A stretch of DNA of 64,000 bases from Pseudomonas poae (GTDB lineage Bacteria; Pseudomonadota; Gammaproteobacteria; Pseudomonadales; Pseudomonadaceae): contig CP110972.1 in the NCBI GenBank assembly GCA_028869255.1, positions 1,927,001 to 1,991,000 of the forward strand, read 5' to 3'. Below, piece after piece: positions 6,699 through 37,849 of the stretch. A program made the position numbers and the translations under genes. The notes under the pieces are model-generated. The model had not been told where the DNA came from. It ran no database searches and saw nothing but the letters and a program-made list of their open reading frames with translations. Numbering within the stretch: position 1 is the first letter of the stretch; every line of letters starts with the position of its first letter.

Positions 6699-7289
6699 AT
6701 GGACCCAGCACTCAAAACCGGGCCCGACGAAGTCGTCACCCTGGTCGTCAAACACCTGATCAAACAAGGCCGCGAAGCCGACTACGAAGCCTGGCTGCGC
6801 CGTATCGTGCGCATCGCCGGCGACCGCCCAGGTCACCTCGGCGTGGATGTAGTACGCAGCAAACAGAACGGCCTGGCCCTGTTCACCTGCGTATTGCGCT
6901 ACCGCTCCACCGATGACCTGGAAACCTGGCTCGACTCGCCCGAGCGCAAAACCCTGATCACCGAAGCCACGCCCATGCTAGCCGACGGCGACAAGACCGA
7001 AATCGGTGGCCTCAACGAATTCTGGTTCAACCCCGAGAGCGAAAACGCCGCCAAGCCGCCGCGCTGGAAGCAGGCCGTGGTCACCCTGTGCGTGATCCTG
7101 CCGCTGACCTTGCTCGTACCGATTGTGTGGGGCCCGATCCTGCGCCTGCACCCATTCCTGTCCAACTACGTCGTCGCCACCTTCCTGGTGACGGTGACCA
7201 TCGTGGTGCTGGTGGTCTACCTGCTGATGCCGGCGGCCACCCGTCTGTTCGCTCCCTGGCTCGAAGCCTCTGTAAAGGAAACCCTATGA
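6699..7289 (+). CDS. Antibiotic-biosynthesis-monooxygenase (ABM) domain protein with C-terminal membrane anchor
   Basis: A 196-residue protein. Residues about 13-100 form a ferredoxin-like ABM/dimeric alpha-beta barrel domain (VVKHLIKQGREADYEAWLRR, then GHLGVDVV). After a short linker come two hydrophobic helices (about 127-146 and 156-177), so the domain is held on the inner membrane. ABM domains act as small monooxygenases or quinone/aldehyde-binding domains. The stop overlaps the start of the amidohydrolase gene by 4 nt (ATGA), so the two are translationally coupled. Confidence 0.82.
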   Translation: MDPALKTGPDEVVTLVVKHLIKQGREADYEAWLRRIVRIAGDRPGHLGVDVVRSKQNGLALFTCVLRYRSTDDLETWLDSPERKTLITEATPMLADGDKTEIGGLNEFWFNPESENAAKPPRWKQAVVTLCVILPLTLLVPIVWGPILRLHPFLSNYVVATFLVTVTIVVLVVYLLMPAATRLFAPWLEASVKETL

Positions 7290-9145: not shown

Positions 9146-9763
9146 ATGACTTACTCGCGCTTGAACAAAGATGATGCAGTGGTGCTGTTGGTGGATCACC
9201 AGACCGGCTTGATCTCGCTGGTGCAGGATTTCTCCCCCAACGAATTCAAGAACAACGTACTGGCCCTGGCCGACTTGGCGAAGTTCTTCAAGCTGCCGAC
9301 CATTCTGACCACCAGCTTTGAATCCGGCCCGAATGGCCCGCTGGTGCCCGAGTTGAAAGAGATGTTCCCCGACGCGCCGTACATCCCGCGCCCTGGCCAG
9401 ATCAACGCCTGGGACAACGAAGACTTCGTCAAGGCAGTCAAGGCTACCGGCCGTAAGCAATTGATCATCGCGGGTGTGGTCACCGACGTTTGCGTGGCGT
9501 TCCCAACCTTGTGCGCCCTGGCCGAAGGCTTCGAAGTGTTCGTGGTCACGGATGCTTCCGGTACCTTCAACGAAGCGGTGCAGCGGGCTTCCTGGGCCCG
9601 CATGAGCGCAGCGGGCGCGCACTTGGTGAACTGGTTCTCCGTGGCCTGCGAGCTGCAGATCGACTGGCGCAACGACATGGAAGGCCTGGCCAACCTGCTG
9701 TCCCAGCGCATCCCCAACTACCGCAACCTGATGAACAGCTACTCGGCATTCACTGCCAAGTAA
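9146..9763 (+). CDS. ycaC: YcaC-like cysteine hydrolase (isochorismatase superfamily)
   Basis: A 205-residue protein with the catalytic triad of the isochorismatase-like hydrolases: Asp in LLVDHQTG near residue 17, Lys in the EDFVKAVKATG region, and nucleophilic Cys in GVVTDVCVAFP near 118. A strong ribosome site (AAAGGAG) precedes the ATG. It matches the E. coli YcaC subgroup, for which the natural substrate is unclear. As the third gene after the ABM protein and the amidohydrolase, it may act on the same small amide substrate. Confidence 0.88.
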   Translation: MTYSRLNKDDAVVLLVDHQTGLISLVQDFSPNEFKNNVLALADLAKFFKLPTILTTSFESGPNGPLVPELKEMFPDAPYIPRPGQINAWDNEDFVKAVKATGRKQLIIAGVVTDVCVAFPTLCALAEGFEVFVVTDASGTFNEAVQRASWARMSAAGAHLVNWFSVACELQIDWRNDMEGLANLLSQRIPNYRNLMNSYSAFTAK

Positions 9764-23975: not shown

Positions 23976-24950
23976 TCAGCGCGATGCTTGGGAAAGTGGG
24001 ACACGCTTGGCGTTAAAGCTCTTGTCGAAGCCCTGGGACACGTCGATGTGCTTGGTCAGCAGGCCTTCTTGTTGGTAGGTGTCGGCGGTCGCTTGCAAAC
24101 CGCGGATAACTGAATCGTCGATGGCCACCGGGGTCAGGCGAGTGTCCTTGGCCACTTCCACATGCACCGCCAGCGGCAGGCCGGTGATCTTGGCCTGGGC
24201 GGCGGCGTATTCATTGGGATGGGTGTTGGCCCAGGCGTAGGCGCGGTCCAGCCGCGCAACAAAATCGTCCAGCTGCGGGCGCTTGTCGGCGATGGCCTGG
24301 CTGGTGGCGGCGAGGTACAGGTGATTGCTCAACAGCTGGTTGCCGCTGATCAGCACGCGCGCCTGGCTTTGCGAGGTGACCACGGTGGTGTACGGGTCCC
24401 AAGTGGCCCAGGCGTCGGCGGTGCCGTTATCCAGCACCAGGCGCGACTCGCTGGGCAGCAGGAAAATGAACTGCACATCCTGGGTGGTCAGCCCGGCGCT
24501 GGCCAGGGCCTTGATTGCCAGGTAGTGCCCGATGGACCCACGCCCGGTGACGATCTTCTTGCCCTTGAGGTCGGCCACCGTCTTGATCGGCGAATCCTTG
24601 GGCACCAGCACGGCGGTGGTGTTACGCCCTTCGGCGTGGATGATGCTGACCACCTTGAGCGACGCGCCGGCGCCGAGGGCGAACACGTAAGGCGCATCGC
24701 CCAAGGCGCCGATATCCACAGCGCCGGCATTCAGGGCTTCGCCCAGAGGCGAGGCGGACGGGAATTCCGACCACTGGATTTCATAGGGCACATTTTTGCT
24801 TTCGCCGGAGACCTCCAGCAGCGCCTTGATCGTGGATTTCTGATTGGCCACCCGCAGCGGTTGCAGGTCGGCAGCGTGGGCGGCAGACGCCAGGCCAAGG
24901 GCCAGGGCGGTACCCAGGAGCAGGCGTTTGAATGGGGTGCTAAAGACCAT
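23976..24950 (-). CDS. asfC: Aliphatic/aryl sulfonate-type ABC substrate-binding protein (AsfC/SsuA-like)
   Basis: A 324-residue periplasmic protein. I start at ATG 24950, since it gives a signal peptide ([20 protein letters not shown] to SAAHA) and has GGAG upstream. The mature part is an SsuA/NMT1-like binding protein: [58 protein letters not shown] and [11 protein letters not shown]. The order flavoprotein, ferredoxin, binding protein matches asfABC, known for arylsulfonate use in Pseudomonas putida, hence the tentative symbol. Its permease and ATPase are probably the genes at 36268-37849. Confidence 0.83.
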
Positions 24951-24960
24951 GGGATGCAGG

Positions 24961-25015
24961 CTCCAGGCAGATCTAAAAAGGGCTTTGGTTACCTCCGCCT
25001 GGAGAAGGGGTCGGT
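24961..25015 (-). promoter_or_regulatory. Leader element A: GC-rich motif with possible SD-masking switch
   Basis: Read on the minus strand, 25015-24992 is ACCGACCCCTTCTCC followed by AGGCGGAGG. CTCCAGGC (25004-24997) can form a small hairpin with its own GGAG. It can instead pair over 8 bp with GCCTGGAG (24968-24961), which contains the ribosome site of the binding-protein gene. The two pairings exclude each other. Similar motifs precede the TauD and SsuD-like genes. Confidence 0.5.
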
Positions 25016-25060
25016 GAGGGGTTAACGTTATTCCCATAAAAACTCGCTGTGAAGTTCTTT

Positions 25061-25085
25061 TTGGTTATAAGTTAATTATTAAAAT
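25061..25085 (-). promoter_or_regulatory. AT-rich operator-like motif, copy 1
   Basis: On the minus strand it reads TAATAATTAACTTATAACC, one of four close copies in the sulfur locus. It is 111-135 bp upstream of the binding-protein start, where a CysB/LysR-type activator site would lie. Confidence 0.6.
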
Positions 25086-25106
25086 AATTGATTATGTATT
25101 GTCTGA

Positions 25107-25472
25107 TTATTCTCTAAATGCATTTGGTGGTATGCCGCGTGCCACTGCGAAAATCCCGTCCATGCGCCAATGTTCATTGCGATGGCGTGGGTCATCCGCC
25201 CATTCATCCCAGCCGGAATCCCGTCGGTACTGGCCGAGCAGGCCCGCTTCACGCACCGCCACCGGGTCGGGATGGCGCAGTTGCTCAACGTCCGGGTCGA
25301 CGTACAGCGCGTCGCTGCTGCAATACAACTCGCACATGAAACAGGTCTGGCACGCCTGCTGCTCGGCGATGCGCAGCGTGCCCTGGGCGTTCAGCGCCAG
25401 CACATTGGTGGGGCACACCGCGACGCACTGGCCGCAGCCGTTGCACAGGTCGGAGTAGATCAGTTCGAGCAT
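25107..25472 (-). CDS. asfB: 4Fe-4S ferredoxin partner of the flavoprotein (AsfB-like)
   Basis: A 121-residue protein, using ATG 25472 with GAGGA upstream (an ATG at 25499 also exists but has no ribosome site). Two clusters are visible: CNGCGQCVAVCP near residues 10-21 and CQTCFMCELYC near 40-50, a two-[4Fe-4S] ferredoxin. The C-terminal 70 residues (GWDEWADDPRHRNEHWRMDG) are an extension rich in Trp/Asp/Arg. It lies directly after the flavoprotein gene and should pass electrons to or from it, as in AsfAB or AprAB pairs. Confidence 0.85.
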   Translation of the reverse strand: MLELIYSDLCNGCGQCVAVCPTNVLALNAQGTLRIAEQQACQTCFMCELYCSSDALYVDPDVEQLRHPDPVAVREAGLLGQYRRDSGWDEWADDPRHRNEHWRMDGIFAVARGIPPNAFRE

Positions 25473-25499
25473 GGTTGGAGTCCTCGCCACAGGGGGCAT

Positions 25500-27023
25500 T
25501 CATTGGCTGGATAAAAGTGGATCGAAGCGCGCTTGGACGTGCGCCACGCCGGACAGCCGCAGATGCGCGTCATACAGGGCGCTCTGCACAGGAGTGTCGC
25601 TGCGTTGATGCATGCCGCGACTCTCCTTGCGCAGGGCGGCGGCGGTGTAGCACCAGCGGGCGGTGGCGGCCATGGCGGCGGTTTCGCGGGCGCGCAGGGG
25701 GTTAACGGTGGGGGAAGCGCCTGCGCTGACCTGGTCCCAGATGTTGTCCAGTTCACGCAGTGAGCGTTGCAATTGACCGCCTGAGCGAAACAGGTTTTTG
25801 TCCAGCGGGTGGACTTCGGCCTGGATGCGTCGAAGCAGTTCAGCATCGCCACCCGCAGCGCCGTCGAAGCCGCGCAGTGCGCCGTGATACGCCAGCCTGA
25901 GGCGAGCCAGTTGCGCCGCGCCACGCCCGGCCCATTGCCCGGTGGACAAGGCCCACGCCGAGTTCTGTGCGCCGCCGCCGGAGGTGGCGCCGGCAATCGG
26001 CTCGCGGCTGGCGGCATCACCGGCGGCGAATACGCCGGGCACTGTGGTCTGGCAATCGTCGTCGATCAGCCGTAAACCGCCGACACCGCGGATGGTGCCC
26101 TCGGGGTGCAGGGTCACGGCAAATCGCTCGCGATACGGGTCAACCCCGCGTCGGTCAAACGGCAACATCAGGTTGGGTTGGATGCTCGGCAGTTGGGCGC
26201 GGATGTGCGGCGGTACCTGGTTCAGGCGGCAATACACCGGGCCATTCAGCAGGGCCTTGGCCAGGTCCTCGGTGAAGCCTGGGCCGGTGGCGATCCCCAG
26301 CGGGCGGTCCGCTGCATCGAAGTATTCGCCGAAGCTGTAGACCATCGAGCGGGTCATGCTGCTGCCCGCGGCCGCAATGCAGTAGTAGTTGGAAAACTCC
26401 ATGCCCGACAGCTCGGCGCCGGCTTCGGCCGCCATCAGGTAGCCGTCGCCGGTGTTGGTATGGCTGCCCAGCAGGCGCGAGAGGAACGCACAACCGCCGG
26501 TGGCCAGCACCACCGCGCCGGCGCGGATCAACCAGTCGCCCCCGGCCTGGCGCCGCCAACCGCGTGCGCCGACGACTGCGCCGTGGTCGTCACGCAGCAG
26601 TTCCAGGGCGGGGTGGTGATCGAGAATGGTCACGCCGTTGTCGAGCACCCGACGGCGCAGGCCGCGCAGGTATTCCGGGCCGCGCAGGCCACGGTACTGG
26701 GTCTCGCCCTGTTCGTTCTGCGGGAAGTCGTAGTAGTCGCGCAGGCCCGGCAGGCTGGTCCAGGTGGTGTCGATGGCGCGGGCCATCCAGCGCGCATCGG
26801 CCAGGCCGAAGGCGGTGGCCAGGCGTTTGTCGATCGCGGCTTCGCGGGCGTCTGGCGCCACCCACCAGTGGCCGGGGCCGGCGGTAGCGGTGACGCCGCT
26901 GGTGCCGCAGTAGCCCTTGTCCACCAGGATCACCTTGACGCCTTCGCAGGCGGCGCCGATGGCGGCCCAGGTGCCCGCCAGGCCACCGCCGACGATCAAT
27001 ACATCACAGCTCAATTCAGTCAT
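25500..27023 (-). CDS. asfA: FAD-dependent oxidoreductase, fumarate reductase/APS reductase alpha type (AsfA-like)
   Basis: A 507-residue protein from ATG 27023, 10 nt after the receptor stop codon. The FAD-binding motif DVLIVGGGLAGTWAAIGAA is at residues 7-25 and a second dinucleotide stretch AVVLATGGCAFLSRLLGS is near 180. Near the C-terminal third come GGLRLIDDDCQTTVPGVFAA and GDAASREPIAGATSGGG, typical of the fumarate-reductase/AprA flavoproteins. The paired ferredoxin gene and downstream binding protein match asfABC, needed for arylsulfonate sulfur use. The reaction may be reductive C-S cleavage or electron supply to an oxygenase; this is unresolved. Confidence 0.85.
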   Translation of the reverse strand: MTELSCDVLIVGGGLAGTWAAIGAACEGVKVILVDKGYCGTSGVTATAGPGHWWVAPDAREAAIDKRLATAFGLADARWMARAIDTTWTSLPGLRDYYDFPQNEQGETQYRGLRGPEYLRGLRRRVLDNGVTILDHHPALELLRDDHGAVVGARGWRRQAGGDWLIRAGAVVLATGGCAFLSRLLGSHTNTGDGYLMAAEAGAELSGMEFSNYYCIAAAGSSMTRSMVYSFGEYFDAADRPLGIATGPGFTEDLAKALLNGPVYCRLNQVPPHIRAQLPSIQPNLMLPFDRRGVDPYRERFAVTLHPEGTIRGVGGLRLIDDDCQTTVPGVFAAGDAASREPIAGATSGGGAQNSAWALSTGQWAGRGAAQLARLRLAYHGALRGFDGAAGGDAELLRRIQAEVHPLDKNLFRSGGQLQRSLRELDNIWDQVSAGASPTVNPLRARETAAMAATARWCYTAAALRKESRGMHQRSDTPVQSALYDAHLRLSGVAHVQARFDPLLSSQ

Positions 27024-27033
27024 CACCCAGCCC

Positions 27034-29487
27034 TCAGAAGTTGTACGCCAGGCGTGTGTAGTAATACGCGCCGCCGAAGCCGAACGGCGAGAACTGCCCG
27101 TATTCATAGGCGCCGCCCCAGTCCTTGATACCTTTTTTGTCCGGGTACACGTTGAACAGGTTGTTGGCGCCCAGGGCCACGGTGAAGTGCTTGCTGATGT
27201 CGTAGGCGGCGTCGACATCGCTGATCCATTTGGCGCTGAACTTGCGATCGTTGATGGGGTTGTTGTCGCCCTCGGTGTAGCTGCCGAAGCGGGTCAGGGC
27301 CAGGTTGAGGGTGTAGGCGGTGACCTTCCAGTTGGCGGCCAGGATCAGTTTGGATTGCGGGGTGGCGACGGTCAGGTCCTTTTGCAGGCGCCGGTCGAAG
27401 ATCTGGTAATTGGAGCCCAGGCTGGCAAGTGCGGGCGGGGTGTCCTGGAGTTTTTCGATCCTGGTCTGGTTCCAGTTATAGGCCAGGCTCCAGCGCACCT
27501 GGCCGTACTGGTCCAGTTGCTGGCGGTATTCGTTGATGATGTCGATGCCACGGGTGCGGGTGTCGACGGCGTTGGTGTAGTACTGCGCATACAGGCCCGG
27601 CGACAGGCCGTTGGCGACCAGGATCTGCGACACCGCATGGCCGCCGAGCAGGCTGGTGGAGACGATGCGGTCACGAATGCCGATCTGGTACAGGTCGGTG
27701 GTCAGGCGGTAATTCGGGGTCGGCTCGTAGGTGAAACCGAGGCTGTAGTTCAGCGACTTCTCGGGTTTGAGTTTTTCCGCACCCAGGGCCTGGGCTTCGG
27801 CGGTGTCCACCGGCAGCACCTTGACCGGCACCGAGACCTGCTGGCCGTTGACCACGCCGCCGGAGGTGAAGGTGGACGAGGCGTAAATGGTCTGGGCCAA
27901 CGACGGCGCACGAAAGCCATTGTTGATCGTGCCGCGCAGGGCAAATTCAGGCGTGAGCTTGAAGCGTGTCGACAGCTTGCCACTCCAGGTACTGCCGATG
28001 TCCTGGGTGTAGCGCTCGTAGCGGGCGGCGGCTCCGATGTACCAGCGGTCGGTGACGTCCAGCCCCAGGTCGAGGTAGCTGGCGACGTTGCTGCGGCTGA
28101 TTTCGCCGGCATCCGCGGTGCTGGTACCGTTGTACGACGCCAGGCCCGGCAGGGGCGTCTGCCCGGCGAACGGTCCGCTGGGCAGCACGTAATTGCCGGG
28201 GGTATACGACGCATAGTCACCGGCCTCGATCTGGTATTTCTCCCAGCGATACTCAAAGCCGAACGCGGTTTGCAGCGGGTGGCTCAGGCCTATATCGAAG
28301 GTGCGGCTGAGGTCCAGGTTGTTGGTCCACTGGTCGAAGATCTGCGAGGCCAGGTTAAAGGATGTGGGGCTTGTCGGCCCCAGCGACGGGTTGAGGGTGT
28401 TGTTGGCATTGAGGGTGGAATCGTCTTCGCCCCAGGTGGAGCTGATGTCGTAATCCCAGCCGCCGACAAGTCCCTTGAAGCCGCCGGCCACCTGGAAATC
28501 CTTGGTGCGGTTGCGCCGCTGGGCGTGGATGCCGTCGGGGTAGGGCGTGTTCGGGTCGCCGGCCAGCGAGGTGATTTCGTTGGGGCGGTAGTTGCCGGTG
28601 ACCTTGGTGGTTTCCATATAGCTGGCGGTGGAGAACGAGTAGAACTTGAGGTCGTCCTGCAGCGGCAATTCGAGGTTGTAGCTGGCGTTGGTGACCTTTT
28701 CGCGGCCCAGGCCGTAGCTGGGGTTCCAGCCGTGGCGGCTGACGCTCTGGTCACGGCTGTCGGGCGCGGCGGCGGTGCCGTAGAGGCGGCCGGTGGCGCT
28801 GCCGGTGCGGTTGAAAGGCTCCTGCTCCTTGCTGTCCAGCGCCAGGTTGGCGAAGCCGTCGTTGGGCAGGGCCAGGCCGTAGTTGACGGTTTGGTGCACG
28901 GTGTCGCCGTCGCCCGCGCCGTAGCGACCGAACGAGGTTTCGGCGCTGCCGCCGCTGTCGTTTTCCTTGAGGATGATATTGATCACCCCGGCAATCGCAT
29001 CCGAACCGTATTGCGCGGAGGCGCCGTCGCGCAGCACTTCGATATGATCGATGGCCGACACCGGGATCAGGTCCAGGTTGACCGGCACCGCCGCCGTGCC
29101 GATGCGCGCCAGGTTGTTGATCAGCGCGGTGTTGTGGCGGCGTTTGCCGTTGACCAGCACCAGCACCTGGTCCCCGGATAGCCCGCGCATGGTCACCCCG
29201 CGCACCGACCACGAGGTGCCGCCGCCGTTGATTGCCGGCAGGTTGAACGACGGCAGCAGACGCGCCAGCAGTTCCTTGAGGCCGACCTTGCCGCTGGCCT
29301 GCAGTTGTTCGGCACTGATCACATCGATCGGCGAGGGGCTGTCGGCGATGGTGCGGGCCTGGTTGCCACGGTTGCCGGTAACGACCACGGTGCCGAGGGT
29401 TTTGTCGGGGGCTTCGGCGTGGGCCGGCAGGCTGACGGCAAGCAAGCTCAACGCGGCTGCGCAGTATTGAAAGCGAATTGGGGGCAT
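27034..29487 (-). CDS. TonB-dependent receptor of the sulfur locus
   Basis: An 817-residue outer-membrane receptor. Signal peptide (residues 1-24, ending LPAHA). TonB-box-like LGTVVVTGN near 31. Plug domain with PIDVISAEQLQASG, MRGLSGDQVLVLVNGKRRHN and DHIEVLRDGASAQYGSDAIA. The barrel ends in YYYTRLAYNF, with a C-terminal Phe. It is the first gene before the asfAB-like pair, so it probably brings a sulfonate or sulfate ester too large for porins across the outer membrane. No iron-related neighbours are seen. Confidence 0.9.
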   Translation of the reverse strand: MPPIRFQYCAAALSLLAVSLPAHAEAPDKTLGTVVVTGNRGNQARTIADSPSPIDVISAEQLQASGKVGLKELLARLLPSFNLPAINGGGTSWSVRGVTMRGLSGDQVLVLVNGKRRHNTALINNLARIGTAAVPVNLDLIPVSAIDHIEVLRDGASAQYGSDAIAGVINIILKENDSGGSAETSFGRYGAGDGDTVHQTVNYGLALPNDGFANLALDSKEQEPFNRTGSATGRLYGTAAAPDSRDQSVSRHGWNPSYGLGREKVTNASYNLELPLQDDLKFYSFSTASYMETTKVTGNYRPNEITSLAGDPNTPYPDGIHAQRRNRTKDFQVAGGFKGLVGGWDYDISSTWGEDDSTLNANNTLNPSLGPTSPTSFNLASQIFDQWTNNLDLSRTFDIGLSHPLQTAFGFEYRWEKYQIEAGDYASYTPGNYVLPSGPFAGQTPLPGLASYNGTSTADAGEISRSNVASYLDLGLDVTDRWYIGAAARYERYTQDIGSTWSGKLSTRFKLTPEFALRGTINNGFRAPSLAQTIYASSTFTSGGVVNGQQVSVPVKVLPVDTAEAQALGAEKLKPEKSLNYSLGFTYEPTPNYRLTTDLYQIGIRDRIVSTSLLGGHAVSQILVANGLSPGLYAQYYTNAVDTRTRGIDIINEYRQQLDQYGQVRWSLAYNWNQTRIEKLQDTPPALASLGSNYQIFDRRLQKDLTVATPQSKLILAANWKVTAYTLNLALTRFGSYTEGDNNPINDRKFSAKWISDVDAAYDISKHFTVALGANNLFNVYPDKKGIKDWGGAYEYGQFSPFGFGGAYYYTRLAYNF

Positions 29488-29528
29488 GGAGCAGATTCCT
29501 GAAGACGATAGAACGCCGCCGACCCCCT

Positions 29529-29615
29529 GTGGGAGCGGGCTTGCTCGCGAATACGGTGTGTCAGCTACACATGGGCAGGCTGAACCACCGCTTTCGCGAG
29601 CAAGCCCGCTCCCAC
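29529..29615. repeat. REP doublet
   Basis: An inverted REP pair in the gap between the TauD-like gene (stop 29647) and the receptor gene (start 29487), separating two same-strand operons. Confidence 0.9.
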
Positions 29616-29646
29616 ATTGGATCTGTGTTGGGCTTTGAAAAAATGA

Positions 29647-30477
29647 TCAGGCCGCGTTGGCAGCCCTTACCCGATGCGGAATATCGTCATAGGCAATCAG
29701 CACCCGTTCCATACGGCGCGGGTAGTCGCCGTAGTTGTAGACCGGGTAGTGCAGGGTGGAGCGGTTGTCCCAGAACGCCACCGAGCCGGGGCGCCATTTG
29801 AAGCGTACCTGGTGTTCCGGTTTGTTGAATTCTTGCAGCAGGCGGTCGATCAGTTGCTTGCTTTGCTGGGGTGTCCAACCGATCACCGAGGGGTTCTGCG
29901 AGAAGTTGATGAACAGGCCGTCCTCACCGGTTTCCGGGTGGGTGCGCACCAGCGGGTGGGCGAGGATCGGGTAGTCGTAGCCGACCTTGTCCAGGGCCTT
30001 CTTGAAGTCGTGCACCACGTAGAGGTTGTCGATTTCGTCGCGCAGTTCATCCGGCAGCGCCCGGTAGACGGCGCCGGTGTCGGCCCACAGGGTGTCGCCG
30101 CCGACTTCCGGCAGATCCACCGCACGCAGTACCGCGCCGAGGGTGGGTTGCAGCAGCCAGCTGGTGTCGGTGTGCCAACGCCCGCTGGTGCGCGGGCCAT
30201 AGAGCTTGCGCTCGTCCTGGGCTTCGATCAGGTGCGCCTGGGGGCGCGCCGGGTCGTTTTGCTGGGTGGTGGGGTGCACGTACAGCTCGCCGAATTCCTT
30301 GGCGAAGGCGATCTGCTGTTCGGTGCTGATGGCCTGGTCGCGAAAGAACAGCACCTTGTGCGTGAGCAACAGTTGGCGCAGTTCGTCGCGCAGGGCCGAG
30401 GTCAGCGGCCGGCGCAGGTCGATACCGGCGATTTCGGCGCCGATGGTGGGTTCCAGGCGGGTGATATGCAGGGTCAT
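29647..30477 (-). CDS. TauD/TfdA-family 2-oxoglutarate-dependent dioxygenase
   Basis: A 276-residue non-heme iron enzyme. The iron ligands are visible as HTDTSW near residue 110 (HxD) and the distal His in RSTLHYPV near 248. The 2-oxoglutarate-binding Arg is in YPRRMERV near 260. The start (ITRLEPTIGAEIAGIDLRRP) is the family hallmark. Members release sulfite from taurine (TauD) or open alkyl sulfates (AtsK). The position in this locus fits a sulfonate or sulfate-ester substrate. A GC-rich leader element lies 28 nt upstream of the ATG. Confidence 0.9.
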   Translation of the reverse strand: MTLHITRLEPTIGAEIAGIDLRRPLTSALRDELRQLLLTHKVLFFRDQAISTEQQIAFAKEFGELYVHPTTQQNDPARPQAHLIEAQDERKLYGPRTSGRWHTDTSWLLQPTLGAVLRAVDLPEVGGDTLWADTGAVYRALPDELRDEIDNLYVVHDFKKALDKVGYDYPILAHPLVRTHPETGEDGLFINFSQNPSVIGWTPQQSKQLIDRLLQEFNKPEHQVRFKWRPGSVAFWDNRSTLHYPVYNYGDYPRRMERVLIAYDDIPHRVRAANAA

Positions 30478-30505
30478 GCGGGTGTCCTCTCGTGTGTGGG
30501 TTCAG

Positions 30506-30528
30506 CCTCCGCCTGGAGAGGGGTCGGA
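30506..30528 (-). promoter_or_regulatory. Leader element B upstream of TauD-like gene
   Basis: On the minus strand it reads TCCGACCCCTCTCC then AGGCGGAGG, nearly identical to element A. Its CCTCTC can pair with GAGAGG, the ribosome site of the TauD-like gene, so again the element could mask translation start. Confidence 0.5.
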
Positions 30529-30572
30529 TGTAGGGCCTGCACCCGTGGTGGATGCAGGCGGGGTTGGGTGGA

Positions 30573-32156
30573 TCAGATCACGTAGAAACCATGGGTGCCG
30601 TCGCGGGCCAGTTGGTCGACCAGGCCGAATTCCCAATCCAGGTACGCCTGCATGGCTTCCTTGGGGTTGTCGGTGCCTTCGTACGGGCGGCGGTAGCGGT
30701 CGATACGCGGCGAAGCCAGGTGGGTTTCACCTTCTTCCAGCGGTAACTGCGCGTTGATCCAGCCGGCCGTGCCGTCCTGCAGCAGGAACACTTGCTTGCC
30801 GGTGATGGCCTCGACCTCGGCCACCGCCAGACGCGCCAGTTGGCTGCTGCCGCAGGTCAGCACATGACGCTGCGCGGCAGGCACTTTGGCCAAGGCAGCG
30901 GGCAGTTGCGCACGCAGCGCCCACCAGGCACCGGGGATATGGCGTTTTACATAGTTGGCGCTGGCGGTGAAATCCAGCACCACGGTGTCGCCATGGCCCA
31001 GCCAGTCGGCGAGGGTGTGCGGGCTGATCAGCTCGGCCTGGGGCGGGGTGGGCACCGGGGCAACCCAGGCACCTTTTTCGCTGAAATGAGCCGCTTGCAA
31101 ATCATCCAGTACATGCACTTCCCAGCCCAGTTGGGCCAGCCAGGAGGCGGACATATTGGCGCGCACGCCATCGTCATCCGCCAGCACCAGCCGCGCACCG
31201 CGTACGCTGGCGACATGGTCGGTTTCCTGCACCAGTTGACCGCCCGGCGTGGAGCGTGCGCCGGGCAGGTGGCCGGCTTCGAATTCTTCCGGGGTACGCA
31301 CATCGAACAGGTAGGTGGTGCGCGTGGTTTGCTGCTGCCAGGCGTGCAGGTCGGCCAGGCTGGCGCGGCCAACACGGGCCTTGTCGGCGACGCGGCGCGC
31401 ATCGACGGCGGCGATCTGGCGATGTTCCTCCGAGGTCGGTGCAAAGCGGCGCGACTGGCCGTGGGCGAGTTTCTGCCCGGCCAGGGTCCAGCCGATGGTG
31501 CCATTGCGCAGCGCCGAGACCGGGTTGGCCACGCCGGCATTGATCAGCGATTGGGTGCCGATAATGCTGCGGGTGCGCCCTGCGCAGTTGACGATGATGC
31601 GGGTGGCCGGGTCCGGCGCCAGTTCACGGGCGCGTAACACCAGTTCGGCACCGGGTACGCTGATGCCGGTGGGGATGCTCATGGTCTGGTATTCGTCGAA
31701 ACGGCGGGCGTCGAGCACCACCACATCGGCCTGGCTGTCGAGCAGCGCTTGCACTTCTTCAGCCGCCAGCGATGGGGTGTGGCGCTCGCTTTCCACCAGT
31801 TCGCCGAAGGCTTTGCTCGGCACGTTGACGTCGATAAACAGCTCGCCACCGGCCTTGCGCCAACCCTCCAGCCCACCTTCAAGCAGGCTGACCTGGGTGT
31901 AGCCCAGTGCGATCAGGGTGTGCGCGGCGCGGGCGGCCAGGCCCTCACCGTTGTCGTAGACGACGACCTGGGTATCGCGCCGTGGAATGCGCGAATACAC
32001 CTCCAGTTCCAGCTTGGACAGCGGGATATTTGCCGCGAACAGCGGGTGGGACTCGGCAAACGGCGCTTCTTCGCGCACGTCGACCAGGGCGACTTCTGCA
32101 GAGTCCAACAGGGCCTGGCGAATCAGGGCGAAGCGGGTAGTCGATACGGTGCTCAT
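30573..32156 (-). CDS. Four-domain rhodanese (thiosulfate sulfurtransferase-like)
   Basis: A 527-residue protein built of four rhodanese repeats (about 1-110, 120-245, 260-370 and 375-480). Active-site loops differ: repeat 1 YDNGEGLAARA and repeat 3 ADDDGVRANMSA have no Cys; repeat 2 VNCAGRTRSIIG and repeat 4 TCGSSQLARLAV have it. So two active and two inactive domains alternate. Rhodaneses move sulfane sulfur between carriers. Its start overlaps the stop of the thiol dioxygenase gene by 4 nt, which suggests it handles a product of that enzyme or related persulfides. The same pairing exists in P. aeruginosa (PA2602-PA2603) as I recall. Confidence 0.88.
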   Translation of the reverse strand: MSTVSTTRFALIRQALLDSAEVALVDVREEAPFAESHPLFAANIPLSKLELEVYSRIPRRDTQVVVYDNGEGLAARAAHTLIALGYTQVSLLEGGLEGWRKAGGELFIDVNVPSKAFGELVESERHTPSLAAEEVQALLDSQADVVVLDARRFDEYQTMSIPTGISVPGAELVLRARELAPDPATRIIVNCAGRTRSIIGTQSLINAGVANPVSALRNGTIGWTLAGQKLAHGQSRRFAPTSEEHRQIAAVDARRVADKARVGRASLADLHAWQQQTTRTTYLFDVRTPEEFEAGHLPGARSTPGGQLVQETDHVASVRGARLVLADDDGVRANMSASWLAQLGWEVHVLDDLQAAHFSEKGAWVAPVPTPPQAELISPHTLADWLGHGDTVVLDFTASANYVKRHIPGAWWALRAQLPAALAKVPAAQRHVLTCGSSQLARLAVAEVEAITGKQVFLLQDGTAGWINAQLPLEEGETHLASPRIDRYRRPYEGTDNPKEAMQAYLDWEFGLVDQLARDGTHGFYVI

Positions 32157-32764
32157 AGGGCAGGGCTCTTTTCTTTGGACAAATCCCAGATATTCGGGAG
32201 GTAGGCGTTGGAATAACCGGAGATAAACAGTTTCTCGCTGCCGTCGGGCTGGTACACCGCACGGCGCACCGCACCGATATTGGCGCCGTACACATGAATA
32301 CTGATGGACACCTGGTCGCTGTGGGCATTGCTCACCTGGTGGATATCGCCGACCTTGGGCGACACCGCCTCAACCTGGCCCGGCACCAATTGAATCGGCT
32401 TGCCCTCGGCAACCAGACTGCCGTCGGGGGCGCGCTCGAAACCCTGGGAAAATTCCGCCCCGCGCAACATGCCGATCAAACCCCACACCCGGTGGTCGTG
32501 AATCGGTGTGCTTTGCCCCGGGCCCCACACAAAGCTGACGATGCTGAAGCGCTGGCGCGAATCGGCATGCAACAGGAACTGCTGGTAGCGCTCGGGGTCG
32601 GGTTGGGCAAATTCGTCGGGGAGCCAGTCATCATGGCTGACCAGTTGCGCCAGCAGCTTGCCGCCACGGTGCAACAGGTCGCCTTCGCGTGGATTGCCGT
32701 CGATCAATTCCGCCAGGGCGCCTATAAAGGCTCTGAGTCTCTCGGGGTGTCGGGCCTGGGTCAT
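32153..32764 (-). CDS. Thiol dioxygenase, 3-mercaptopropionate dioxygenase type
   Basis: A 203-residue cupin. The iron ligands are the two His of PIHDHRVWG (near residues 88-96) and a third His in GDIHQVSN near 140. The stretch WGPGQSTPIHDH has Gln where cysteine dioxygenases have Arg, the mark of the 3-mercaptopropionate (Gln-type) group such as P. aeruginosa PA2602. It inserts O2 into a thiol to give a sulfinate. It is the first gene of the operon with the rhodanese. An operator-like motif lies 66-90 bp upstream of the start. Confidence 0.88.
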   Translation of the reverse strand: MTQARHPERLRAFIGALAELIDGNPREGDLLHRGGKLLAQLVSHDDWLPDEFAQPDPERYQQFLLHADSRQRFSIVSFVWGPGQSTPIHDHRVWGLIGMLRGAEFSQGFERAPDGSLVAEGKPIQLVPGQVEAVSPKVGDIHQVSNAHSDQVSISIHVYGANIGAVRRAVYQPDGSEKLFISGYSNAYLPNIWDLSKEKSPAL

Positions 32765-32829
32765 GGCACTTCCAATGTTCGGTGGTGATGGGTTTATCTA
32801 AGCATAATGTTTATAGTTAATATGCTATT

Positions 32830-32854
32830 TTTTAATGATTAGCTTATAGCCGAA
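32830..32854 (+). promoter_or_regulatory. AT-rich operator-like motif, copy 2
   Basis: On the plus strand it reads TAATGATTAGCTTATAGCC within a longer T-rich stretch. It lies between the divergent thiol dioxygenase (start 32764) and LysR (start 32978) genes, so it may control both. Confidence 0.6.
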
Positions 32855-32977
32855 GGTAATTTAGAACCGACCTGCATAGCGTTAGACGTTATCGATTGCA
32901 GCGCGGGCTATCCAGGCAGCGTTCCTGCAACTATGCTTCGCACACATCTTAATGACTGTTCTCTATGTGCGGCCCAA

Positions 32978-33883
32978 ATGAAAATTGACGATATCGATGC
33001 CTTTGTCGAAGTGATTCGTTGCCAGTCCATCAGCCATGCCGCCGAGTCGTTGCAACTGACCCAGCCGGCGATTACCCGCCGCGTGCAGAACTTCGAGCAG
33101 GCGCTGGGGGTGGAGTTGTTCGACCGTAACACCAAGCCCCTCAAACCTACGCTGATCGGCACCCGCGTTTATGAGCAATGCCGGCTGATCCTGCGCGAGA
33201 TGGACGCCCTGCGCGAACTGGTGGCCACCGATGCACCGCCGACCGGCCTGTTGCGCCTGGGCGTGCCGCAGACCATTGGCGATGTGGTGTTGCTGGATGC
33301 GCTCAAGCACCTGCGCACCGAATACCCTGACTTGCGCGCCCAGGTCGCCACCGGCTGGGGCAGCCAGCTGGTGGGCAAGATCGAGCGCGGCGAGCTGGAT
33401 GCGGCGGCGGCGCTGTTCCCTGCGGGCAAGATCTTCCCGGATAACGTGGTCGGCGAGTCCATTGGCAAGATGGAATTGGTGGTGGTCTGCGCCAAGGCCC
33501 AGTTGCCGAAAAAGCCTTGCAAGCTGGCGGACGTGTACCAGAACGGTTGGATTCTGAACCCGGACGGCTGCGGTTTCCGTGCGGGTCTGCAGCGCACCTT
33601 GTCCGACCAGGGCCTGGCGCTGCGGGTGAATCTGGAAACCTTCGGTACCGAGCTGCAGTTGGGCCTGGTGGCTGACGGGCTGGGTCTGGGCCTGGTGCCA
33701 CGGCCATTGCTGGAGCGCAGCGCCCACCGTGAACAACTGGCGGTGATGCCGCTCAAGGACTTCAAACCGGTGATGGACCTGTGGCTGATCTACCCACACT
33801 TCCTCGGCAACCTGCAGGGGCCGGTGGATGCCTTCGGCAAGCTGGTGGCGGCGTCGCTGCACAAGATCCGCAACGCGGCCTGA
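32978..33883 (+). CDS. LysR-family regulator of the sulfur locus
   Basis: A 301-residue protein, using ATG 32978 because the LysR helix-turn-helix starts directly (IDDIDAFVEVIRCQSISHAA, then LTQPAITRRVQNFEQALGVELFDRN). The effector domain follows (LLRLGVPQTIGDVVLLDALK, FGTELQLGLVADGLGLGLVP). It is divergent from the thiol dioxygenase gene. Motif copies 2 and 3 flank it on both sides. It is the natural candidate for binding the four AT-rich sites, though CysB is an alternative. Confidence 0.9.
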   Translation: MKIDDIDAFVEVIRCQSISHAAESLQLTQPAITRRVQNFEQALGVELFDRNTKPLKPTLIGTRVYEQCRLILREMDALRELVATDAPPTGLLRLGVPQTIGDVVLLDALKHLRTEYPDLRAQVATGWGSQLVGKIERGELDAAAALFPAGKIFPDNVVGESIGKMELVVVCAKAQLPKKPCKLADVYQNGWILNPDGCGFRAGLQRTLSDQGLALRVNLETFGTELQLGLVADGLGLGLVPRPLLERSAHREQLAVMPLKDFKPVMDLWLIYPHFLGNLQGPVDAFGKLVAASLHKIRNAA

Positions 33884-33896
33884 GGATCATAAAAAA

Positions 33897-33915
33897 TATA
33901 ATAATTAGCTTAGAT
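33897..33915 (+). promoter_or_regulatory. AT-rich operator-like motif, copy 3
   Basis: TATAATAATTAGCTTAGAT on the plus strand, just after the LysR stop and 79-97 bp before the aldolase-like gene start. Confidence 0.5.
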
Positions 33916-33993
33916 TAAAATGTGCTTTTTATTATTTTTTTGCATCCCCTAGGCTTGCCTGGAAGTCCTTAAGGCCATCCAGGAAGTTTTGCC

Positions 33994-34788
33994 ATGAGCA
34001 GCGTCACCTCGATCTCCAGTGTCTCCAGCAATGTTCGCCAGCGCGTCACTCCAGAAGAATGGGAAGTGCGCGTGAAACTGGCCGCCGCCTATCGCCTGGC
34101 GGCCTTGTACAAGTGGACCGACCATATCTACACCCATTTCTCCGCCCGCGTGCCGGGGCCGGAGGAGCATTTCCTGATCAACGCCTTCGGGTTGTTGTTC
34201 GATGAAATCAGCGCGTCCAACCTGGTCAAGGTCGACCTCGACGGCACCCTCGTCGATGACCCCACCGGCCTTGGCATCAACTACGCCGGCTACGTGATCC
34301 ACAGCGCCATCCACGGTGCGCGCCACGACTTGCAAGCGGTGCTGCACACGCACACCCGCGACGGCATTGCGGTGTCGGCGCAGAAAGACGGCCTGCTGCC
34401 GATCTCCCAGCACGCCATTGGTTTTTCCGGGCGCGTGGCGTACCACGGCTATGAAGGCATCGCGCTCGACCTGGACGAGCGTGAGCGGTTGGTGGCGGAT
34501 TTGGGCGACAAGAGCGTGATGATCCTGCGCAACCATGGCTTGCTGACGGCGGGAGTGAGCGTTGAGCACGCCTTTCAGCAACTGCAGCAGTTGGAGCGTG
34601 CCTGCAATATCCAGGTCGCGGCGCAGGCGGCAGGGAATGCGGAATTGATCTTCCCGCCCGCGCAAGTGGTGGCGAAAGTCGAAGAACAGGCCAAGGCGCA
34701 CAGCAGCGGCGAAGGCCCGGGGGTGGCGCGGCATTGGAATGCGTTGATTCGGCAGTTGGAGCGTAGCGATACCGACTACAAAAACTGA
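33994..34788 (+). CDS. Class II aldolase/adducin-family protein
   Basis: A 264-residue protein with the class II aldolase fold. Metal ligands are the paired His of VLHTHTRDG near 117 and the His of ILRNHGLL near 178; FSARVPGPEEHFLINAFGLL is the phosphate-loop region. Members carry out retro-aldol cleavage, epimerisation or decarboxylation of short sugars. In the sulfur locus it might split a sulfo-sugar-like or hydroxy-sulfonate intermediate. Motif copy 3 lies upstream, so it probably belongs to the same regulon. Confidence 0.85.
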   Translation: MSSVTSISSVSSNVRQRVTPEEWEVRVKLAAAYRLAALYKWTDHIYTHFSARVPGPEEHFLINAFGLLFDEISASNLVKVDLDGTLVDDPTGLGINYAGYVIHSAIHGARHDLQAVLHTHTRDGIAVSAQKDGLLPISQHAIGFSGRVAYHGYEGIALDLDERERLVADLGDKSVMILRNHGLLTAGVSVEHAFQQLQQLERACNIQVAAQAAGNAELIFPPAQVVAKVEEQAKAHSSGEGPGVARHWNALIRQLERSDTDYKN

Positions 34789-34806
34789 TTTGAAATAGGG
34801 GTCCCT

Positions 34807-34893
34807 GTGGAGCGGGCTTGCTCGCGAAGGCGGAGTATCAGTCACCGGGTACATTGACTGATTCACCGCTTTCGCGAGCAAGCCCGCTCCCAC
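34807..34893. repeat. REP doublet (left unit with one G missing)
   Basis: An inverted REP pair between convergent aldolase-like and SsuD-like genes. The left arm reads GTGGAGCGGG instead of GTGGGAGCGGG. It is the last REP seen in the window; the exopolysaccharide half has none. Confidence 0.85.
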
Positions 34894-34912
34894 ATTTGTA
34901 TCGGCGGTGCGT

Positions 34913-35995
34913 TCAAGCGACCTGTTTGGCCTGCTCGCGCTCTGCGATCAGCTGGCGGGTGAGGGGGATCAAGCGCTTGCCGTAATCAATCGCATCATTG
35001 AGCGGATCAAACCCACGGATCAGGAACGTGGTAATCCCCAGGTCGTAGTAATCCACCAGCGCCTCAGCCACTTGCTCAGCCGTGCCCACCAGCGAGGTCG
35101 AGTTACCCTGCGCCCCCAGCAACCCGGCAATCGCGGTCCACAAGCGCTTATCCAGCCGCGACCCTTGCGCCGCTGCCGCCAGCAACCGCCGCGAGCCCTC
35201 ATTCGGCGGTTCACGCCGTACAAAGCCATTCTTCTCGGCCAGCGCTGTGGCCTGCTGCAGGATGTTCTCGGCACGCGCCCATGCCAGTTCTTCGGTCTCG
35301 GCGAGGATAGGGCGCAGCGACAAACTGAAGCGAATCGTACGCCCATGCTTGGCCGCTTCGGCGCGCACCTGGGTCACGATCTCGCGCACCTGCTCATAGG
35401 TTTCACCCCACAGCGCGTACACGTCGGCATGTTTGCCCGCCACTTCGATTGCCGCCTGGGAGGAGCCGCCAAAATACAGCGGGATATGCGGCTGCTGCGG
35501 CGACTTCACCGTGGAGTGCGCGCCTTCGACCTGGTAGTAGGTGCCGGTAAAGTCGAACGGCTGTTCGCTGGTCCATTCCTGGCGCACCACGCTCAGGTAC
35601 TCGTCGGTGCGGGCATAGCGTTCGTCTTTGCCGATATGGCTGCCATCGGCGCGCAGCTCGCGGTCGTCGCCGCCGGTGATGATATGCACGGCCGTGCGCC
35701 CGCCGTTGAATACATCCAAAGTGGTGAACTGGCGTGCAGCCAGGGTGGGCTGGGAAAAGCCTGGGCGGTGGGCAATCAGGAATTGCAGCTTTTTGGTGAC
35801 GCTGGCGGCATGGGAGGCGATCAGCGTGCTGTCCGGGCTATTGGAGTGGAACGCCACCAGGGCGCGGTCGAACCCCGCCTCTTCGTGGGCGCGGGCCACC
35901 GTTTCCACGTAGTCCGGTTGCAGGGTAGGGCCGCTGCGCGGGTGGATCTCGGAAGCGTGATGGCCGCCAATATAGCCGATGAATTCAATGCTCAT
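34913..35995 (-). CDS. SsuD-like FMNH2-dependent alkanesulfonate monooxygenase
   Basis: A 360-residue luciferase-family protein close to SsuD in length and motifs: FIGYIGGHHASEIHPR, LQFLIAHRPGFSQPTLAARQ, NGGRTAVHIITGGDDRELRA, IPLYFGGSSQAAIEVAGKHA and TTFLIRGFDP. SsuD releases sulfite and an aldehyde from alkanesulfonates with FMNH2 from SsuE. No ssuE is seen in the window. It is divergent from the permease gene at 36268; the 272-bp gap holds motif copy 4 and leader element C. Confidence 0.9.
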   Translation of the reverse strand: MSIEFIGYIGGHHASEIHPRSGPTLQPDYVETVARAHEEAGFDRALVAFHSNSPDSTLIASHAASVTKKLQFLIAHRPGFSQPTLAARQFTTLDVFNGGRTAVHIITGGDDRELRADGSHIGKDERYARTDEYLSVVRQEWTSEQPFDFTGTYYQVEGAHSTVKSPQQPHIPLYFGGSSQAAIEVAGKHADVYALWGETYEQVREIVTQVRAEAAKHGRTIRFSLSLRPILAETEELAWARAENILQQATALAEKNGFVRREPPNEGSRRLLAAAAQGSRLDKRLWTAIAGLLGAQGNSTSLVGTAEQVAEALVDYYDLGITTFLIRGFDPLNDAIDYGKRLIPLTRQLIAEREQAKQVA

Positions 35996-36025
35996 GGTCT
36001 GTCCTTGTCGAGTGCGGGATTAACA

Positions 36026-36048
36026 CCTCCACCGGGCAGGGGGTCGGT
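36026..36048 (-). promoter_or_regulatory. Leader element C upstream of SsuD-like gene
   Basis: On the minus strand it reads ACCGACCCCCTGCCC then GGTGGAGG, the third copy of the leader motif, 30 nt before the ATG. Here the small stem of copy A is not kept, so a DNA-level role is also possible. Confidence 0.45.
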
Positions 36049-36095
36049 TATTCGCGTCCAAAGTAGGGGCAGGGGCAGGGCCTGTAAAATGCCGA

Positions 36096-36120
36096 TTGGT
36101 TCTAACCTAATTATTAAAAA
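36096..36120 (-). promoter_or_regulatory. AT-rich operator-like motif, copy 4
   Basis: On the minus strand it reads TAATAATTAGGTTAGAACC, 101-125 bp upstream of the SsuD-like start and about 150 bp upstream of the divergent permease start. Confidence 0.6.
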
Positions 36121-36267
36121 GCAGAATCATAAATTGTTTGATGTATCAGTAATTTGCATGTTGAGTGCATTAGGTTATTCCCAGAAAGACTTTCACGGCG
36201 GTTTTTTATGCGATTAGCATAAATCTGCAGCGGCGTTCCCGGCCGTGTCTTTTGAAAAGGAAGCCTG

Positions 36268-37089
36268 ATGAGCGAGACGATCATCCTCAATAAAGTCGAG
36301 GGTCAAACCAAGGCGGCGCGTAAATGGCACACCCCCGACGCCTTGCTGCGGCTGATCAGCCCAATCGTGTTGTTGCTGCTGTGGGAGTTGGCCTCGCAAC
36401 TGGGCTGGCTGCCGTCGCGCATCATCGCGGCGCCTTCGCAGATCGGCGGCACGTTGTGGGCGATGATTGCCTCCGGGGAGTTGGGCAAGCATTTGCTGGT
36501 GTCCCTGCAGCGCGCCTTGTTCGGCTTGAGCATCGGCGTCAGCATCGGTGTGGTGGCGGCGTTGATCACCGGCCTGTCGCGGCGCGGCGAGGTGATCCTC
36601 GATTCGCCGATGCAGATGCTGCGCACTATCCCGTCCCTGGCGCTGGTGCCACTGTTTATCCTGTGGTTCGGCATCGGTGAGTTCACCAAAATTGCGCTGA
36701 TCGTCACCGGCACCACCTTCCCGGTGTACCTCAACCTCTTCGCCGGCATCCGCAATATCGACCCCAAGCTGATCGAGGCCGCCAACACCCTGGGCCTCAA
36801 CCGTCGCGAGCTGATCTGGCATGTGATTTTACCGGGGTCGTTGCCGTCGTTTTTTGTTGGCCTGCGCTATGCCCTGGGCATCTCGTGGCTGGCCCTGGTG
36901 TTTGTCGAGCAGATCAACACCACTGCGGGCATCGGCTTCCTGGCCAGTGACGCCCGCGATTTCATGCGCACCGACGTGATCGTGATTTGCCTGCTGATCT
37001 ACAGCGTGCTCGGCCTGTTGATCGACGGCCTGATCCGCACCCTCGAACGCTTTGCCCTGGCCTGGCGCCCAACCTTTGTGAGGAACTGA
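36268..37089 (+). CDS. ABC transporter permease, SsuC/TauC type
   Basis: A 273-residue inner-membrane protein with six predicted helices and the binding-protein-dependent transport signature EAANTLGLNRRELIWHVILP near residues 171-190 (EAA loop). The length and sequence (VLLLLWELASQLGWLPSRII, LRTIPSLALVPLFILWFGIG) fit the nitrate/sulfonate/taurine group. The ATPase gene starts 1 nt after its stop. No binding-protein gene is adjacent; the one at 23976-24950 is the likely partner. Confidence 0.92.
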   Translation: MSETIILNKVEGQTKAARKWHTPDALLRLISPIVLLLLWELASQLGWLPSRIIAAPSQIGGTLWAMIASGELGKHLLVSLQRALFGLSIGVSIGVVAALITGLSRRGEVILDSPMQMLRTIPSLALVPLFILWFGIGEFTKIALIVTGTTFPVYLNLFAGIRNIDPKLIEAANTLGLNRRELIWHVILPGSLPSFFVGLRYALGISWLALVFVEQINTTAGIGFLASDARDFMRTDVIVICLLIYSVLGLLIDGLIRTLERFALAWRPTFVRN

Positions 37090-37090
37090 C

Positions 37091-37849
37091 ATGTCGACGA
37101 TAGAAGCGCCGGTGCAACTGCGTAACGTGGTGCGCCAGTTCGGCCAGCAGCGGGTCATCGATGGCCTGGACCTGGACATCGCCCCCGGCGAGTTTGTGGC
37201 CTTGCTCGGCGCCAGCGGTTCGGGCAAAACTACCTTGCTGCGCAGCCTGGCCGGGCTGGACAGTATCGACAGCGGCCAGTTGCGCGTGCCCAAGGCGCGG
37301 GCGGCGGTGTTTCAGGAGCCGCGCCTGATGCCGTGGAAGCGTGCCTGGAAAAACGTCATCCTCGGCCTGCGCATTCCCGACGCCAAGGCGCGTGCGGTGC
37401 AAGCCTTGACCGAAGTCGGCCTGGCGCATCGCCTGGACGCCTACCCCGCGACGCTCTCCGGTGGCGAAGCGCAACGCGTGGCCCTGGCCCGTGGCCTGGT
37501 GCGTGAACCCAAGCTGCTGTTGTTGGATGAACCCTTCGCCGCCCTCGATGCCCTGACCCGCATCAAAATGCACCGCCTGATCATCGAACTGTGGCGCAGG
37601 CACACCCCGGCGGTGCTGCTGGTGACCCATGATGTGGATGAAGCGATCCTGCTGGCCGACCGCGTGATTGTGCTGGCCGATGGCAAGATCGCCGAGCAAC
37701 TGCGCATCGATTTGCCACGTGCGCGGGACACCGGCCAGGCAGGTTTTCAGGCGATCCGTGCACGCCTGTTGAGCCTGCTGGGGGTGGACGTTGAAGCGCA
37801 GGCGGTACGGCCGGCCGAGGTCAATTTGCGGCGCGTTGCCCACGGCTGA
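37091..37849 (+). CDS. ABC transporter ATPase, SsuB/TauB type
   Basis: A 252-residue ATPase with Walker A GASGSGKTT near residue 40, Q-loop in VFQEPRLMPWK, signature LSGGEAQRVALARGL near 121, Walker B LLLLDEPFAALD near 143 and switch His in LLVTHDVDEA. It would power the permease next to it for sulfonate import. The 85-bp gap after its stop separates the sulfur locus from the exopolysaccharide region. Confidence 0.93.
   Translation: MSTIEAPVQLRNVVRQFGQQRVIDGLDLDIAPGEFVALLGASGSGKTTLLRSLAGLDSIDSGQLRVPKARAAVFQEPRLMPWKRAWKNVILGLRIPDAKARAVQALTEVGLAHRLDAYPATLSGGEAQRVALARGLVREPKLLLLDEPFAALDALTRIKMHRLIIELWRRHTPAVLLVTHDVDEAILLADRVIVLADGKIAEQLRIDLPRARDTGQAGFQAIRARLLSLLGVDVEAQAVRPAEVNLRRVAHG

Follow-up and report, generated by a model that had tools for sequence, protein, structure and literature searches.

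Three sulfur-related genes in a 64,000-nucleotide (nt) stretch of the Pseudomonas poae genome (the window; contig CP110972.1, positions 1,927,001 to 1,991,000) are preceded by a 22-nt element, CCGACCCC...CMNGGYGGAGG, whose nearly invariant core encloses a variable loop. The loop differs among the gene families that carry the element, and in most of them it is matched to the family to which it belongs: it is complementary to that family's own ribosome site. Comparison of these sequences makes it rather probable that the element is a cis-acting RNA of sulfur-scavenging mRNAs in the Pseudomonadaceae that controls translation of the next gene. What the evidence supports best is a capacity of the leader RNA to mask ribosome sites in the majority of these families.

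A preliminary description of this DNA had placed three copies on the coding strand, 28-41 nt before the ATGs of asfC-like, TauD-like and SsuD-like genes, with 6-7 nt between CCGACCCC and a G-rich block. Searching both strands of the window with the pattern CCGACCCC-N4-9-GGNGGAGG returned exactly these three, all on the minus strand, and 100 dinucleotide-preserving shuffles returned none. The spacers measure 7, 6 and 6 nt in copies A, B and C, and the ATG follows GGAGG after 41, 28 and 30 nt, respectively. The half-site CCGACCCC alone occurs 11 times in the window against 3.7 expected and therefore says little by itself. Copies A and B can pair over their ribosome sites just as had been proposed, and copy C, for which the same description had noted that the pairing is not kept, indeed lacks a perfect loop-ribosome-site match (CTGCCC against GGACAG leaves one mismatch), as does the SsuD family as a whole. 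The features of the three loci are as follows.

24992..25014, minus strand: core of copy A, CCGACCCC-TTCTCCA-GGCGGAGG (search pattern; covariance model R1, E = 1.6e-6).
24961..24968, minus strand: ribosome-site segment of copy A, GCCTGGAG, perfect complement of CTCCAGGC (25004-24997); the minimum-free-energy fold pairs both.
25025..25054, minus strand: predicted promoter of copy A, half-site CTTCACAG (25054-25047) and -10 box TAACGT (25030-25025), the latter 10 nt upstream of the element.
23976..24950, minus strand: SsuA/AsfC-like sulfonate-binding protein gene downstream of copy A (TIGR01728, 205.8 bits, above the cut-off of 163.5).
30506..30527, minus strand: core of copy B, CCGACCCC-TCTCCA-GGCGGAGG, between operon genes (search pattern; R1, E = 1.3e-5).
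30486..30491, minus strand: ribosome site of copy B, GAGAGG, complement of CCTCTC (30521-30516).
30536..30558, minus strand: short hairpin CCTGCATCCACCACGGGTGCAGG between the stop codon of a rhodanese-like gene (30575-30573) and copy B.
29647..30477, minus strand: TauD-family dioxygenase gene downstream of copy B (Pfam PF02668; taurine dioxygenase model NF007104, 230.8 bits, below the cut-off of 313).
36026..36047, minus strand: core of copy C, CCGACCCC-CTGCCC-GGTGGAGG (search pattern; R1, E = 9.8e-7).
35999..36006, minus strand: ribosome site of copy C, AAGGACAG, imperfect complement of the loop CTGCCC, with no covariation in the SsuD family.
36060..36090, minus strand: predicted promoter of copy C, half-site ATTTTACAG (36090-36082) and -10 box TACTTT (36065-36060), the latter 12 nt upstream of the element.
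34913..35995, minus strand: SsuD-like FMN-dependent monooxygenase gene downstream of copy C (TIGR03565, 251.8 bits, below the equivalog cut-off of 518.2).

The mechanical open reading frame (ORF) of the copy A gene starts at ATG 25037, shortly before the predicted -10 box; judged by the ribosome site and by the start that homologues have in common, the gene begins at 24950. Upstream of copy B we saw no promoter-like sequence by a crude AT measure (upstream AT 0.40).

The same genome contains two further exact copies outside the window (reversed control pattern, none), one before a gene for a class II aldolase, where a monooxygenase-like ORF lies upstream (L001/L006), and one before a TonB-dependent receptor gene (L005/L007). 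Judged by the common leader alone, the aldolase and the receptor may also serve sulfur uptake. The covariance-model search that had been suggested as a check, run with a model (R1) built on an alignment (A1) of 73 related sites, recovered the identical five copies at E < 5e-5; the next match (E 0.004) falls in protein-like sequence, and the last (E 1.8) is weak. Of 199 Pseudomonas genomes searched, 78 carry the pattern, which is matched 167 times in all, compared with 8 times for its reversed control. Together, the shuffles, the genome control and the genus control counts rule out a chance origin. A protein-coding repeat is ruled out as well, because the spacer differs by one base among the copies and the copies precede gene starts.

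Part of the genus matches, 98 distinct instances, entered a census of downstream genes, which resolved into nine families and single cases (L059, L070 (aminotransferase) and eight coding chance matches; we dropped those eight). The families comprise SsuA-like binding proteins (24), SsuD-like monooxygenases (20), TauD (9), two groups of TonB receptors (8 and 6), class II aldolases (6), NtaA/DmoA-family monooxygenases (6), FAD amine-oxidase-like proteins (5) and flavoproteins of the fumarate-reductase type (4). Four of the nine, namely the SsuA-like, SsuD-like, TauD and NtaA/DmoA-type families, are recognisable organosulfur types. Among close SsuA-like orthologues (at least 61% identity), 10 of 11 keep the element, one of them as a variant (L257), and the sole close orthologue without it (L261) also lacks a GCCTGGAG-like site; five more distant matches all lack the element. 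Close SsuD orthologues keep it in 5 of 11 cases, and a similar promoter is still present in five of the six that do not.

The match between loop and ribosome site carries most of the argument. The scored segment comprised C5-C8, the loop and GGN, its target was nt 13-60 downstream, and partners were permuted at class level (97 instances in 17 classes, of which nine are the families and eight are single loci from other genera). Pairing averages -9.39 kcal/mol with own partners and -7.50 (sd 0.36) with permuted ones; none of 20,000 permutations attains the observed value, and the controls are null, with upstream DNA at 9,628 and the further-downstream nt 71-118 at 6,818 of 20,000. When the nine families are taken alone, a single one of 362,880 permutations reaches the observed value for own pairs, and that one is the real arrangement itself; the stricter comparison of all within-family pairs gives 57 of 362,880, and the own-pair controls are again null (360,579 and 143,672 of 362,880). 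Representative pairs are CTCCAGGC/GCCTGGAG in the SsuA-like family, CCTCTC/GAGAGG in TauD, CCCCTCGCA/TGCGAGGGG in the aldolase family and TCTCCGGT/ACCGGAGA at L111. The helix usually extends into GGYGG: among instances at -8 kcal/mol or better (95 of 122), G1 is paired in 84 and G2 in 87.

Covariation points the same way. The loop base before GG and the base before GGA of the ribosome site form Watson-Crick pairs in 32 of 69 instances, compared to 18.9 by permutation (0 of 20,000), with T-A in all 7 T cases and A-T in 24 of 39 A cases. The SsuA-like family contains T-A as well as A-T pairs, and so does the flavoprotein family. The family-specific pairing with the ribosome site that characterizes an expression platform is therefore seen overall, and is absent from the SsuD family taken alone. 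Exchanging elements between leaders moderately lowers predicted contact with the ribosome site: the native element makes more of it in 66 of 96 leaders (mean 0.37 versus 0.22). Fold z-scores are convincing only for the aldolase leader L006 (-3.56) and suggestive for copy A (-1.84).

A crude upstream-AT threshold applied to 122 instances classed 94 as AT-rich and hence promoter-like. Within these 94, a TTTCACAG-like half-site, which we assign to CysB by inference, is present in 87 and a TANNNT box in 89, and in 81 of the 89 the box ends 9-13 nt before the element's first C. Given the typical distance from a -10 box to the start of transcription, this spacing indicates that transcription should begin a few nt upstream of the element, which is thereby predicted to lie within the transcribed leader; copies located between operon genes lead to the same prediction. 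The remaining 28 of the 122 are not promoter-like, including 8 of 9 TauD and 10 of 24 SsuA-like copies (L185 falls in this group solely through truncation of its upstream DNA, and L170 seems to be misfiled). As SsuD orthologues can have the promoter without the element and other copies have the element without promoter-like sequence, the two are separable.

The core itself behaves differently from the loop. Near invariance of its 15 bases follows from the construction of the pattern and is backed by one-mismatch searches. These covered 149 genomes, and from the matches listed we chose 16 loci (14 one-mismatch, 2 exact). Two proved to be real elements, L281 with one mismatch and L291 as an exact match, and the other 14 look coding. 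A hairpin within the core can take two forms, both weak alone: the GA form lies at -2.8 to -4.4 kcal/mol (25 of 97 listed), and the best folds at -4.0 to -5.3 kcal/mol. At three loci of related genera (L089, L105, L107), GGTGGAGG is by eye complementary to a stretch resembling CTTCCACC or GCTTCCACC that lies about 25 nt further downstream and is distinct from the ribosome site.

Several observations weigh against a masking leader RNA. Covariation supports no base pair within the nearly invariant core, and the true core variants seen (L281, L257, L106, L107) show no compensation, so that the covariation-backed core structure typical of a riboswitch is not found. The SsuD family, second largest with 20 of the 97 instances, pairs less well with its own segments (-6.23 kcal/mol) than with those of other families (-8.03 kcal/mol), and SsuD orthologues without the element have ribosome sites much like those with it. 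C-G pairs occur in just 1 of 23 C cases, at least 15 of which are SsuD copies and some of which shift register; pairing in class 6 is patchy. Total predicted ribosome-site pairing barely changes upon the element swap (native 0.57, swapped 0.53). The folds of copies B and C and of L007 are no better than those of shuffles, although all three are predicted to bring element and ribosome site into a helix. The permutation statistics include related species, which are not independent, and purine-rich ribosome sites facing a C-rich loop raise chance pairing, which the permutations allow for.

Because the core is invariant without compensating changes, it seems to be recognised by its sequence, by some partner. 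What that partner might be separates the readings that share the masking helix. One possible, if doubtful, candidate is a metabolite: the core would be an aptamer for a compound that reports sulfur status (sulfide, cysteine or one of its precursors, for instance O-acetylserine) and the loop-ribosome-site helix its expression platform. The element would then represent a novel class of riboswitch, about 22 nt long and placed at the very 5' end of the mRNA, sensing a sulfur-starvation metabolite, with a loop tailored to each family's ribosome site, and would supplement CysB-type control of transcription with regulation of translation. The combination of a nearly invariant 15-base core with a family-specific platform, the mutually exclusive helices that use the common GGYGG, and the diverse genes that probably belong to one starvation response all fit this picture; an aptamer of only 22 nt, a core hairpin that is weak next to the strong masking helices, the missing covariation within the core and the SsuD copies that have no platform do not. 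Strict sequence conservation with little structure, and SsuD leaders that keep the core without pairing, are what one would expect if an RNA-binding protein or a trans-acting small RNA opened or locked the ribosome site from the core. This we regard as a tentative option, for which no candidate factor was identified and no search for one made; both halves of the core are conserved, whereas a typical small-RNA seed needs less.

The GGAGG could instead be a standby site, a perfect Shine-Dalgarno core, in the window copies 28-41 nt upstream, at which the 30S subunit lands before it reaches the masked site, or, in some leaders, it could directly serve a small upstream ORF. GGAGG is invariant in the pattern-selected set, and five leaders of the FAD-oxidase family carry GGAGG-CAA-ATG-GAT upstream ORFs (cysteine at codon 4 in three of the five). 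Such a site leaves the invariance of CCGACCCC unexplained, and in most other leaders, inspected by eye, GGAGG is not closely followed by a start codon; we consider it unlikely. Least probable of all is a DNA element, that is a transcription-factor site just downstream of sulfur-starvation promoter starts, which the preliminary description had kept as an alternative. The 9-13 nt spacing from the -10-like box would suit such a site. By contrast, the position of the element is not tied to the promoter, given the TauD and SsuA-like copies that are not promoter-like and the five SsuD orthologues that keep a similar promoter and lack the element, and a DNA element gives no prediction of loops matching ribosome sites. 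Family-specific loops and copies without promoter-like sequence therefore make a DNA-only site unlikely. Rather, the sequences are best read as a new, very small cis-acting translational leader RNA, short of a demonstrated riboswitch.

This leader RNA appears to be restricted in its distribution. A family-level R1 search gave matches at E up to 0.1 in 20 of 59 genomes, but leaders convincing by eye came only from the P. poae genome, from G083 and, in three further genera, from four genomes (G250, G211, G208, G224). At class level, a strictly filtered search of 229 genomes, in which 31 candidates were scored for each, yielded only the P. poae genome and L112 (E 0.0014), which looks coding. A named scan covered at least 120 loci; among the matches listed, 30 are from Pseudomonas or Stutzerimonas (S. 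kirkiae), and a record named "gamma proteobacterium L18" resembles the aldolase leader. The 89 loci from other taxa among the matches listed look like chance, with upstream AT of at most 0.53. Fifty of the 57 examined lie within long stop-free frames, a weak criterion since true copies pass it too. Among the genomes searched, convincing relatives are seen only in the Pseudomonadaceae and in one unclassified gammaproteobacterium. A relative of the copy A leader region, 78% identical, lies on a Pseudomonas antarctica plasmid (NZ_CP015601.1:42410-42509).

SAM-II and preQ1 are translational riboswitches that mask the Shine-Dalgarno sequence, and the element resembles them in its short constant core within a 5' leader, its gene-specific ribosome-site pairing and its association with related genes. 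It differs in that its candidate core hairpin lacks covariation support and in that no Rfam 15 covariance model overlaps it at E up to 1 in window positions 24000-37500 or in seven related loci, in line with the earlier remark that no named riboswitch fits. Weak microRNA-named Rfam matches in the window fall on two palindromes (29521-29623 and 34809-34890). These are long inverted repeats, 84% and 92% complementary, which share an arm with GGAGCGGGCTTGCTCGCGAA and which we take to be REP-like. ROSE-like thermometers also mask the ribosome site. Those of Pseudomonas are, like this element, leader RNAs, and they control translation (PMC3669281); the element described here differs in its strict C/G-rich core, which recurs before sulfur genes and has no Rfam match. 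Pseudomonas cis-regulatory candidates such as gabT, livK, sucA-II, rmf, gyrA, Pseudomon-1 and others (PMC2864571) are, like this element, lineage-restricted candidate RNA motifs from comparative genomics; unlike it, they are presented in a main text that does not use the words sulfonate, taurine, tauD or sulfur, and the element matches no Rfam family. Word searches of the main texts of four motif-discovery papers (PMC11109978, PMC8632094, PMC2864571, PMC6429828) found no description of the element, nor is it described in the other papers searched, a set that excluded subscription papers and preprints.

A general upstream ORF is ruled out, as just a subset of leaders has one. Cysteine-codon leader peptides regulate sulfur genes in other bacteria, and five leaders here (L029, L048, L052, L056, L138) likewise have an upstream ORF with early cysteine codons, whereas by eye most of the leaders listed have no such ORF. 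No conserved upstream ORF with regulatory codons emerged from three of the nine families and a few loci, which were translated, or from the rest, judged by eye. A short ORF begins 2-5 nt after GGAGG in the FAD-oxidase family (L029, L048, L050, L056, L057) and in L052 and L138; several of these ORFs contain early cysteines (MDFC, MDLC, MDSC, MDFCC) and in this resemble leader peptides that sense cysteine. Another arrangement is seen in five leaders of the aldolase type whose 5' region is long (L006:4954-5010, L011, L045, L054, L156): the masked site there serves a three-codon mini-ORF (MTT, MTT, MQT, MST and MQT, each followed by a stop). The place of the mini-ORF is taken in L049 and L077 by the start of the aldolase itself. 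The window also holds an unusual sulfur gene set at 29647-32764, where a cysteine-dioxygenase-like gene, a gene whose product has four rhodanese stretches and the TauD-family dioxygenase gene adjoin.

Taken as a translational leader RNA, the element would sit at the 5' end of the mRNA or at an internal gene border and govern how the gene that follows is translated. The variable loop, in many cases jointly with GGYGG, would pair with the family's own ribosome-binding site and mask it, as probably happens inside cells; alternatively, GGYGG could pair with the upstream CCGACC(CC) and free the ribosome site. Since GGYGG could pair with CCGACC instead, two exclusive states are possible, and the element could be a two-state translational switch. 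Of the switch layout that the preliminary description had seen, the masking capacity stood up, given the family-specific loops, the predicted transcription and the copies without promoter-like sequence, and two regulated states with a sensed signal are a conjecture. The core hairpin that would form the other state is weak alone and lacks the covariation across homologues that was found between loop and ribosome site outside the SsuD family. This alternative hairpin is hypothetical, as are the direction of control and any metabolite or factor by which the core would be recognised. Release might come from a metabolite at the core, a protein, a small RNA or a ribosome landing at GGAGG. As the genes belong to different pathways but probably to one starvation response, the trigger would more likely be a signal of general sulfur status than a substrate.

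To our knowledge, organosulfur use in Pseudomonas has so far been explained at the level of transcription. If our reading is true, a common translational element would form a second regulatory layer over nine gene families and would provide a list of its targets. It would also rank among the smallest candidate RNA switches, and because a single genome carries five copies, the hypothesis can be tested directly.

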